A stretch of DNA of 64,000 nucleotides. It comes from Caldanaerobius polysaccharolyticus DSM 13641 (GTDB taxonomy: Bacteria > Bacillota > Thermoanaerobacteria > Thermoanaerobacterales > Caldanaerobiaceae). Positions 6,364-57,322 of the stretch are shown one piece after another. Each line of letters begins with the position of its first letter. The stretch's first letter is position 1. The stretch spans positions 990,524 through 1,054,523 of the forward strand of contig NZ_KE386494.1 in NCBI RefSeq assembly GCF_000427425.1, read 5' to 3'. Below the pieces are notes generated by a model, which saw nothing but the letters and a program-made list of their open reading frames with translations, made no database searches and was not told the origin of the DNA. The translations under genes and the position numbers were made by a program.

Positions 6364-7044
6364 TCACCCTTTAAAATAATATCCTGAGCCCCACTTAGTC
6401 ACGATATACTTTGGGTCAGACGTGCTGTCACCTAATTTTTCTCTGAGTTTGCTAATATAGACATTCAATGTCTTGATGTCTCCATTGAAATCGTATCCCC
6501 AGATCCTATCCAGTATCTGGTCTTTTGAAAATACCTTCCCCGGATTAGACGCCAGCAAATAAAGCACATCATACTCCCTGGCCGTAAGTTCCACTTCCTT
6601 CCCCTTTAAAAACACCCTTCTGCTGCGCGCGTCTATTTTTAAATCGCCGTATTCCAGCACATCCTGTTTCCTCTCATAGCCATTTCGACTTCGCCTCAAA
6701 AGCGCATTTATCCGCGCTATCAACTCTCTCGTGTTAAAAGGCTTTGTAACGTAATCATCTGCTCCCATCTCAATTCCCACGATCTTATCCACATCATCCC
6801 CTTTTGCCGTGAGCATAATAAGGGGCACGTTGGAAACCTCCCTGATTTTCCTGCACACGCTTAAACCATCTATCTCCGGAAGCATCAAATCCAGTATTAC
6901 CACATCGTGTTGATTTCTCCTGGCCATCTCAAGACCTGACCTGCCATCATAGGCCACATCTACCGCAAAACCGTTTTGCATTAAAGATAACCTCAAGCCC
7001 TTTACCAGCAATTCATCGTCATCGATTATAAGCACCTTGTCCAC
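6364..7044 (-). CDS. OmpR/PhoB-family response regulator
   Basis: Cytoplasmic DNA-binding regulator paired with the kinase that follows. The receiver domain has DDD at 8-10, phospho-acceptor D52 (in ILDLMLPE) and K101 (TKPF); the C-terminal ~100 residues are a winged-helix Trans_reg_C domain ending in the usual SKWGSGYYF-like element (here VTKWGSGYYFKG). I place the start at the GTG at 7044, which has GGGGGG seven bases upstream and begins directly with the VDKVLIIDDD strand. An upstream GTG at 7068 would add eight residues not typical of the family. Confidence 0.93.
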   Translation of the reverse strand: MDKVLIIDDDELLVKGLRLSLMQNGFAVDVAYDGRSGLEMARRNQHDVVILDLMLPEIDGLSVCRKIREVSNVPLIMLTAKGDDVDKIVGIEMGADDYVTKPFNTRELIARINALLRRSRNGYERKQDVLEYGDLKIDARSRRVFLKGKEVELTAREYDVLYLLASNPGKVFSKDQILDRIWGYDFNGDIKTLNVYISKLREKLGDSTSDPKYIVTKWGSGYYFKG

Positions 7045-33868: not shown

Positions 33869-33899
33869 TTTAATATACTTAATAATTAATTAATAAATA

Positions 33900-34028
33900 G
33901 CCTAATCCATATTCTATATGGAGCGGGGGATAAACCTTGGGGTGAATCCACTTCGCAAAAATTTCGAAGTGGTAGGGTTTGCTCTTTACCGAACCCGTCA
34001 ACTAACCTCGCAGGCTAAAAGAGAAAGG
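33900..34028 (+). ncRNA. Cyclic di-AMP riboswitch (ydaO/yuaA motif)
   Basis: The conserved ydaO blocks appear in order: GAGCGGGGGA (33921-33930), GGGGTGAATCC (33939-33949), a variable hairpin CCACTTCG / CGAAGTGG, TAGGGTTTGCTCTTTACCGAACC (33973-33995; key blocks TAGGG, CTCTTT and CCGAACCCGTC), then ACTAACCTCGCAGGC before AAAAGAGAAAGG. This class binds c-di-AMP and usually turns off cell-wall hydrolase or potassium genes; the gene here is an NlpC/P60 hydrolase, a classic target. No separate terminator hairpin is obvious before the gene. Confidence 0.92.
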
Positions 34029-34037
34029 ATGGTTACA

Positions 34038-55010: not shown

Positions 55011-55859
55011 ATGAAAAGCGTAAATCCAGAGCACAGGGCCGTTTTTATTTTCCTTGCGCTTTTACTTGTAATAGGAATTTTTATATACGCCAGAACAGCC
55101 GGCGATCATAAGACGATGTACAAGCAGTTTTATTCCACCAGAGGAATCCCTGTCCTCATGTACCACAAGGTAAACCCCGATAGAAAGACAGGCGGTTTAG
55201 GCCTCAGGGTACTGCCTAAAGATTTTGATTGGCAGATGGATTACCTGTATAAGCACGGATTTCACACCGTATCATTGGAAGACGTAATTGATTACTGGCA
55301 CCACAAAAAGCCGTTGCCACCAAACCCAATCGTCATAACCTTCGACGACGGCTACCAGGATAATTATACATACGCTTTTCCCATACTAAAAAAATACCAC
55401 TTTACAGCTACGATATTTGTTGTGGTAAATTCCATCGGGAAAACAAACTTTTTTGACGCAGACAGAAAGGTCCAACCTGTAAACAAAATGCTGTCACTAA
55501 AGCAAATAAAAGAGTTAAACGCATACGGCATAACCATAGGAGCCCATACCATGAACCATCCCCATCTGGCAAAGATAAGTTTAGACCAGGCCAGAGAAGA
55601 GATAATAAACTCAAAAAAGGCGCTGGAAAAAATCCTGGGCAAACCCGTATTGGTGTTTTCTTATCCTTATGGCAGTTACGACAAAAATGTAGAGAAAATC
55701 GTCAAAGAAGCGGGTTATAAAGCTGCTGTAACCACAAGACAGGGCATCAACTTCCCCGATTCAGATCCGTATGCTCTAAAGCGCATACGCATAATGGGAA
55801 TGTACAGCCACAGGAAATTTATTTATGAACTAAACAGATACTACAAAAAGCGGTTTTAG
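55011..55859 (+). CDS. Polysaccharide deacetylase (NodB family)
   Basis: A 282-residue membrane-anchored carbohydrate esterase-4 enzyme. One N-terminal helix (FIFLALLLVIGIFIYARTA) precedes the NodB domain with motif 1 TFDDG and the metal-binding HTMNH of motif 2, then the motif FSYPYGSYD. It removes acetyl groups from wall glycans or another surface polysaccharide. The ATG at 55011 has GGAGG upstream; the longer frame from 54939 is not needed. Confidence 0.9.
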   Translation: MKSVNPEHRAVFIFLALLLVIGIFIYARTAGDHKTMYKQFYSTRGIPVLMYHKVNPDRKTGGLGLRVLPKDFDWQMDYLYKHGFHTVSLEDVIDYWHHKKPLPPNPIVITFDDGYQDNYTYAFPILKKYHFTATIFVVVNSIGKTNFFDADRKVQPVNKMLSLKQIKELNAYGITIGAHTMNHPHLAKISLDQAREEIINSKKALEKILGKPVLVFSYPYGSYDKNVEKIVKEAGYKAAVTTRQGINFPDSDPYALKRIRIMGMYSHRKFIYELNRYYKKRF

Positions 55860-55900
55860 GTATCATAACATCAAGAGAAAAAAATTCTCGCCCATGTTTA

Positions 55901-55929
55901 TTGACAATTGCGTAAAATAAAGATATAAT
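55901..55929 (+). promoter_or_regulatory. Perfect consensus promoter of the ammonium transporter
   Basis: TTGACA (55901-55906), exactly 17 bases, TATAAT (55924-55929). Transcription should start at about 55936, right at the leader hairpins. Confidence 0.85.
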
Positions 55930-55939
55930 AATGACATCG

Positions 55940-56014
55940 TGAACGACGTTGTTCATTCAGGCGATGAAGCCTTTAAAAGGGTTATATTTACCCTTTTAAA
56001 GGCTTTTATTTTTT
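55940..56014 (+). promoter_or_regulatory. amtB leader: two hexaloop hairpins and an overlapping terminator
   Basis: Hairpin P1 is TGAAC-GACGTT-GTTCA (55940-55955), P2 is AGGC-GATGAA-GCCT (55959-55972). A terminator with 13-bp arms GCCTTTAAAAGGG (55969-55981) and CCCTTTTAAAGGC (55991-56003) and a T-run to 56014 shares bases 55969-55972 with P2, so P2 and the terminator exclude each other. This is the architecture of ANTAR-protein antitermination targets, but the loops (GACGTT, GATGAA) have G at position 4 without A at position 1. An unknown nitrogen-responsive RNA binder is possible. Confidence 0.7.
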
Positions 56015-56041
56015 AAATTTCAAAATCAAGGAGGGATCTTT

Positions 56042-57322
56042 TTGAATACAGGTGATACTGCATTTGTGCTAATCTCCGCTGCTCTCGTCATGTTCATGAC
56101 ACCGGGAGTAGCACTGTTTTACGGTGGAATGGTCAGAAGAAAAAACGTGTTGGGTACCATGATGCAAAGCTTTATAATCATAGCTCTGGTATCTGTCATA
56201 TGGGTCTTATTAGGATATTCTCTTTCTTTTGGGCCAGACGTAAATCACATCATAGGAAGCCTCAAGTGGTGGGGCTTAAACGGCGTTGGGTTAAAACCAA
56301 ACCCCAACTATGCTTCATCTATTCCTCACATGGCTTTTGCCGTGTATCAGATGATGTTCGCTATCATAACGCCAGCCCTCATAACAGGGGCTTTTGCAGA
56401 GCGCATGAGATTTAAGCCTTTCCTCATATTCATCGCTCTTTGGAGCATTCTCGTATACTCCCCCTTATCCCACTGGGTCTGGGGAAATGGCGGATGGTTA
56501 AGGACATTAGGCGTGCTGGACTTTGCTGGGGGAAATGTGGTGCACATAAGTTCAGGCGTATCCGGGCTTGTGCTGGCATTGGTACTTGGTAAAAGGCTGC
56601 GCTATGGCCAAGAACCCATGATTCCCCACAACCTGCCCATGGTGGTATTAGGTGCCGCAATACTCTGGTTTGGCTGGTTTGGATTCAACGCAGGCAGCGC
56701 TTTGGCCGCAAACGAATTGGCCGTAAACGCTTTTGTCACTACCAACACAGCCGCAGCGATGTCCTCGCTAAGCTGGATGATTACCGAATGGATGGTCACT
56801 AAAAAACCTACGCTATTTGGCGCTGCCAGCGGCGCAGTAGCTGGCCTTGTGGCCATTACCCCTGCTGCTGGGTTTGTAAGCCCTCTGTCTTCAATAGTGA
56901 TAGGACTCATAAGCGGCATATTGTGTTATTATACCGTCAATATAATGAAGTACAAACTGGGCTACGATGATTCACTGGACGCTTTCGGAATACATGGAAT
57001 AGGAGGCACATGGGGCGCTATAGCTACCGGTTTATTCGCTTCTAAAGCCATCAATCCCGCTGGTGCTAACGGCTTATTCTTCGGAAATCCTCATCAGCTG
57101 CTCGTTCAGTTTATAAGCGTAATAGTGACATACGCATTCGCTGCTGTGGCATCCTTTATCATAATAAAAGCCATATCCATATTCACTCAGGTAAGGCTGA
57201 GCGAAGAAGAGGAAGAGCTGGGGCTGGACCTTACACAGCACGGCGAAGAAGCATATCCATATACCGAAAGCATCGCTTTATCCAATACCCATAAACACAT
57301 CAAGCAAGAGCAGGCAGTTTAA
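56042..57322 (+). CDS. amtB: Ammonium transporter
   Basis: A 426-residue Amt/Rh channel with about eleven helices (start NTGDTAFVLISAALVMFMTPGVALFYGG; ALLIGFWAE-like core WSLVYSPLSHWVWGNGG; conserved histidines in FDFAGG.VVHISSG and the late IHGIGGTWG). It moves ammonium into the cell. TTG start at 56042 behind GGAGGG. Usually paired with a PII gene (glnK); none follows here. Its last 45 bases overlap the 3' end of mntH on the other strand. Confidence 0.93.
   Translation: MNTGDTAFVLISAALVMFMTPGVALFYGGMVRRKNVLGTMMQSFIIIALVSVIWVLLGYSLSFGPDVNHIIGSLKWWGLNGVGLKPNPNYASSIPHMAFAVYQMMFAIITPALITGAFAERMRFKPFLIFIALWSILVYSPLSHWVWGNGGWLRTLGVLDFAGGNVVHISSGVSGLVLALVLGKRLRYGQEPMIPHNLPMVVLGAAILWFGWFGFNAGSALAANELAVNAFVTTNTAAAMSSLSWMITEWMVTKKPTLFGAASGAVAGLVAITPAAGFVSPLSSIVIGLISGILCYYTVNIMKYKLGYDDSLDAFGIHGIGGTWGAIATGLFASKAINPAGANGLFFGNPHQLLVQFISVIVTYAFAAVASFIIIKAISIFTQVRLSEEEEELGLDLTQHGEEAYPYTESIALSNTHKHIKQEQAV

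Follow-up and report, generated by a model that had tools for sequence, protein, structure and literature searches.

A probable variant ANTAR-type antitermination switch in the amtB leader of Caldanaerobius polysaccharolyticus

We describe here that the amtB leader of Caldanaerobius polysaccharolyticus is very probably an ANTAR-type antitermination switch. The leader lies in a stretch of 64,000 nucleotides, termed the window, whose numbering is used throughout (Table 1). In favour of this reading are a layout beyond chance, a three-way compensation between the second hairpin and the terminator, a single ANTAR gene linked to glnA, and switches of the same plan in the same genome. Further support comes from relatives with and without ANTAR proteins, from a 4-nt gap between hairpin cores that recurs elsewhere, and from a eutA-like leader recovered by covariance model R2. 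Because the published defining letter, A at loop position 1 (A1), is absent from both loops, we file the leader as a variant and not as a plain member: A1 is relaxed to R1, the leader would belong to a nitrogen regulon, and it is a predicted target of the ANTAR protein. The original prediction had left two readings side by side. The ANTAR gene beside glnA, the switches in the same genome and the amtB switch conserved in relatives support the first, a variant ANTAR target; given this evidence, the second, a new nitrogen-responsive attenuator, is not needed.

The layout is as originally predicted. A promoter with a perfect consensus match sets the predicted transcription start at about 55936, and the first hairpin, P1, begins roughly 4 nt later, where a distance within about five bases had been claimed. 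Two adjacent hexaloop hairpins follow, P1 with 5 and P2 with 4 stem pairs (at least 3 define such a hairpin), and the second shares four bases with an intrinsic terminator: the P2 3' arm GCCT (55969-55972) falls within the terminator 5' arm. Since the same bases serve both stems, P2 and terminator are mutually exclusive. The linker between P1 and P2, 6 nt between 3-bp cores and 3 nt between full stems, agrees with the short linkers of 5-12 nt in Enterococcus faecalis eut and of 2-25 nt in PMC8164766. The folding energy of the leader is -32.1 kcal/mol (z = -5.5), most of which is accounted for by the terminator. Its lowest-energy fold also contains a long 5' pairing, which the sister species does not have and which was set aside.

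Table 1. Features of the amtB leader, the ANTAR gene and related leaders (window numbering unless a contig of the same genome, G000, or a locus, L, is named).
Feature	Position	Strand	Evidence or remarks
Promoter: -35 TTGACA 55901-55906, 17-nt spacer, -10 TATAAT 55924-55929	55901..55929	+	12/12 consensus
P1 hexaloop hairpin tgaac[GACGTT]gttca, loop 55945-55950	55940..55955	+	sequence, sister conservation, covariance-model match
P2 antiterminator hexaloop hairpin aggc[GATGAA]gcct, loop 55963-55968	55959..55972	+	sequence, sister compensatory changes
Intrinsic terminator: 17-pair stem-loop 55966-56006 and T-rich tail	55966..56014	+	fold; co-change with sister P2 stem
Ribosome-binding site AAGGAGG	56028..56034	+	sequence
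amtB, ammonium transporter, TTG start	56042..57322	+	PF00909 E 2.4e-137; TIGR00836
ANTAR gene (receiver-ANTAR)	G000:C3:972766-973335		E 1e-21
glnA leader (G000)			P2 loop AAGGGC
amt2-glnK leader (G000)			P2 loop AAAGGC
nifH leader, first switch (G000)			P2 loop AAAGGC; one P2-stem mismatch
nifH leader, second switch (nif-2, G000)			P1 AGTGTC, P2 GGAGAT
Pyrimidine leader, dual hexaloop gaac[AGCGTA]gttc / tagc[GATGGC]gcta and terminator	G000:C2:487687-487718 (L287)	-	
Tandem nifH attenuators (G000 nifH leader)	L170 about 6540-6680	-	
Tandem nifH attenuators	L208-L212; L222		

From this anatomy a mechanism can be proposed. By default, polymerase starting at about 55936 would make P1 and then the long terminator, which would swallow P2, and would stop before amtB. 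The active glnA-linked ANTAR response regulator would bind the hexaloops as they emerge. Bound P2 would be stabilised, and with its 3' arm forming the base of the terminator 5' arm no terminator would form and amtB would be transcribed. From the genes involved, we infer that the regulator is active under nitrogen limitation, as regards both the signal and the direction of the response.

The leader was compared with that of a single congener (G001; amtB 87% identical), a narrow base that counts against the ANTAR reading. The sister leader has the same promoter, P1 tgaac[GATGGT]gttca, P2 ggac[ATCGAA]gtcc and then a terminator whose arms start with gtcc and end with ggac. Both hairpins with G4 in both loops are kept in this relative, where failure to find the two loops conserved would have spoken against the prediction. 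Two of the four P2 pairs are altered on both sides, with a matching change in the second arm of the terminator, and the P2 5' arm, P2 3' arm and terminator 3' arm change jointly from aggc/gcct/aggc to ggac/gtcc/ggac. Such a three-way compensation is expected if both alternative structures matter. In P1 all ten stem bases are identical in the two species and the loop alone differs. That this stem stayed the same while the P2 stem changed would also suit an explanation we regard as unlikely, in which P2 alone is the ANTAR site and P1 is a DNA palindrome (TGAACGAYGKTGTTCA), a repressor operator just downstream of the start with an incidental hairpin. The P1 sequence is a near palindrome, P1 is missing from the amt and glnA leaders of many relatives, and both genomes have a comparable palindrome across a glutamate-synthase-like start codon. 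However, genome-wide counts of the P1 motif equal those of a reversed-pattern control, bar its own copy and one site per genome (at most one mismatch), the one over that start codon; the P1-P2 spacing agrees with other dual hexaloops; and the P1 hairpins of the G040 nif, G047 amt and G000 pyrimidine leaders keep the hexaloop and G4 with a mostly different stem. The hairpin over the start codon, TGAAC[GATGTC]GTTCA (sister loop AATGTC; L116:1500-1520, L115:1498-1520), could be a translational ANTAR site or due to chance, the latter being an option because the stretch is partly coding.

Beyond the genus, a P2 of type C[ANNGNN]G that overlaps a terminator is found in most amt and glnA leaders of ANTAR-bearing relatives, including Thermoanaerobacterium, Thermoanaerobacter and further families, among them f4, which we take to be Caldicellulosiruptor. 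Exceptions, with no match, are the nifH leaders of f4 genomes and the glnA leaders of G007, G010 and one G049 copy. Three genomes without ANTAR act as natural negative controls and fit this pattern: G009 and G013 have no amt match and no such P2 before glnA, and the amt leader of G050 is devoid of the switch. The amt genes and ANTAR tend to occur in the same genomes (43/48 vs 1/13, p 4e-8, uncorrected for phylogeny). The gap between 4-bp cores is 4 nt in the window, the sister, the nif-2 and pyrimidine leaders of this genome, G040 nif, G047 amt and Thermoanaerobacterium nif-2. Many relatives have amt and glnA leaders with P2 and no recognisable P1, a point against the ANTAR reading. No P1 is recognisable in the glnA leaders of this order (L230-L253). 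In the f4 amt leaders (L023-L031, L180-L183), P2 tgcc[AATGGG]ggca starts about 11 nt after a consensus -10 box, so that there is no room for P1; these leaders resemble ANTAR switches with a single hexaloop, whereas in E. faecalis two have been shown to be required. A free-standing hairpin, aataatgc[GATGAT]gcattatt, lies between two canonical P2/terminator units in the second-type amt leaders of two Thermoanaerobacterium genomes (L190, L191).

The window holds neither an ANTAR regulator nor a PII gene, as had been stated, and all genome-wide matches lie outside C2:990524-1054523, for ANTAR on contig C3 and for PII on C3 and on C2 near 479 kb. The search for ANTAR-domain proteins proposed with the prediction found exactly one in the genome, a receiver-ANTAR protein encoded immediately 3' of glnA. 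Among solved structures its best match is 6wsh/6ww6, which carries the label 'Response regulator'; we read it as EutV because its residue numbers agree with those of the EutV paper once shifted by two. The protein keeps the equivalents of EutV Tyr164, which stacks on loop G4 (PMC8934654), and of Met172. Those of N173, R175 and R177, a trio whose joint mutation abolishes binding by EutV, are D, G and P, which weighs against the ANTAR reading. In the receiver the aligned phospho-acceptor Asp is kept; the second acidic residue is replaced by Ser and the usual Lys by Arg, and going by this residue alignment the receiver may respond to an unusual input.

Switches of the same plan, with P2 and terminator, precede glnA, amt2-glnK, nifH (two) and a pyrimidine-catabolism-like run in the same genome. 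The last precedes the aminotransferase that heads the gene run, whose likeness to pyrimidine catabolism was judged from the sequences, and suggests that this operon is in the same regulon as amtB. Two ANTAR-type attenuators stand in tandem in the nifH leaders of this genome, of G040 and of several Thermoanaerobacterium genomes.

The loops of the amtB leader, GACGTT and GATGAA, share G1, A2 and G4 as predicted; of these, G4 alone is conserved, the P2 loop of the sister having A1 and G4. The A1/G4 rule derives from the eut, nasF and amiE leaders, and both positions affect EutV binding, with A1 required for full binding (PMC3369931). The departure from this rule is real, yet not unique. In this genome G1 occurs in P2 of the amtB, nif-2 and pyrimidine leaders, in the latter two beside a canonical A1/G4 P1. 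It is also found in P1 of the sister's amtB and of G047's amt, in P2 of G038's glnA and of a second G289 element, and in both loops (GACGAA, GATGGG) of the G040 nif leader from another family, again with the 4-nt gap between cores. In a six-sequence alignment (A2) each loop has an invariant G4 and P2 an invariant closing C-G pair; covariation of the pairs is seen at the proposed register and lost on sliding it, a count that is not independent as the sequences were partly selected for forming hairpins. In the EutV crystal the base contact is to G4 alone and A1 is thought to hold the loop open, and cross-loop pairing has been suggested to hinder binding (PMC8934654). G1 can pair with position 6 in several loops, and ViennaRNA closes P1 of the window to a tetraloop. 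Both the G1 in each loop and this possible G1-U6 pairing in P1 count against the ANTAR reading. A1 is no absolute feature of the family: slightly more than half of the predicted actinobacterial targets conserve A1 and G4 (PMC8164766). A tentative and rather doubtful idea is that G1 loops (GAYG type) make up a second class of ANTAR target, distinct in specificity or affinity, by which one regulator would stagger amtB against A1-loop genes including glnA.

The missing A1 in both loops, together with the finding that no Rfam family fits, might also point to a protein-independent or unrelated switch, read by another RNA-binding protein, a small RNA or a ligand, with convergence on hexaloops as the source of the ANTAR likeness. 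We hold this to be very improbable: the same plan occurs before glnA, beside the only ANTAR gene, and before other nitrogen genes of the genome, G1 loops stand next to canonical P1 loops in the nif-2 and pyrimidine leaders, and the switch is associated with ANTAR presence in relatives, albeit uncorrected for phylogeny. LicT/SacY-type RAT sites are single long imperfect hairpins, and such a site was considered and set aside by description. Rfam gave no match at the amtB leader at the gathering threshold and only sub-threshold matches in a lenient scan. Elsewhere in the window, a c-di-AMP riboswitch lies at 33889-34032 (RF00379, 84.8 bits). The covariance search proposed with the prediction was carried out with two models. 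Model R1 (4 sequences) recovered little beyond its own seeds; its weak extras are mostly inside coding genes, except a G049 glnA leader. Model R2, built from six aligned sequences including the amtB leader, was run on 399 genomes of the phylum and recovered amt and nif leaders with terminator and the eutA-like leader, though its total of 36 matches at E 0.1 is about the number that E-values predict by chance. Matches without terminator are mostly inside coding sequence. Those with terminator are almost all before nitrogen genes (several amt, nif, an asparagine-synthase-like gene and the gene that resembles eutA by its sequence), and only the terminator-bearing matches before nitrogen genes are taken as informative. 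The eutA-like leader has canonical loops, AATGGT and AATGAA; in this match and in the asparagine-synthase match P2 was shifted by one base, and both were corrected manually. The recovery of the eutA-like leader, a classical ANTAR context, by a model that has the amtB leader in its seed supports a common recognition.

The leader was also compared with chance by keeping the terminator fixed and shuffling the preceding stretch 20,000 times with dinucleotides kept. Any P2 hexaloop arose in 3.8% and two hexaloops in 0.7% of the shuffles; under the loop rule C[RNNGNN]G, which was picked after the data were seen, a P2 arose in 0.38% and two such loops in 0/20,000. A P2 of this type is present at 1 of 44 terminator-like sites in the window, the amtB leader. 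That the terminator merely ends the polysaccharide deacetylase gene upstream (same strand, end at 55859) and the hexaloops are there by chance is hardly credible, as the shuffles do not yield the arrangement, the perfect promoter between this gene and the terminator is the only promoter-like site found in 55850-56060, and the sister shares the arrangement, with analogous ones before amt in other families.

An ANTAR-type reading of the leader ties an apparently orphan amtB to the glnA-linked regulator and outlines an antitermination-controlled nitrogen regulon in this order of thermophilic Firmicutes. The G1 leaders are natural test cases for the idea that A1 just shapes the loop and G4 carries recognition (PMC8934654). 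Searches requiring A1 in both loops can miss likely members. Antitermination of the ANTAR kind is already known and the relaxation of A1 is mild but testable, while the regulon assignment is useful.

Among known ANTAR proteins, NasR of Klebsiella oxytoca and AmiR of Pseudomonas aeruginosa use other input domains, and to our knowledge their genes are not linked to glnA. Their targets nasF and amiE likewise have hexaloop hairpins before a terminator, with A1/G4 loops (PMC3369931), unlike the G1 loops of amtB. NitR of Clostridium acetobutylicum, cited in PMC4676874, is likened here by its regulator gene alone, which is of ANTAR type and linked to glnA within the nitrogen system of a clostridium; that source treats it along with an antisense RNA. 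ANTAR-type switches have been predicted before nitrogen genes in Desulfotomaculum reducens (glutamate synthase) and Pelobacter carbinolicus (nitrogenase), by a seed alignment with fixed A1/G4, and the available portion of that work makes no mention of amtB with G1 loops (PMC3369931). The EutV/eut system of E. faecalis shares the close hexaloop pair, the second hairpin overlapping the terminator and G4 in both loops (PMC3369931, PMC8934654), and its regulator is likewise a receiver-ANTAR protein. In contrast to EutV and its A1 loops, the regulator described here is encoded with glnA, with no adjacent kinase gene and with an atypical receiver, and its predicted target is ammonium uptake.
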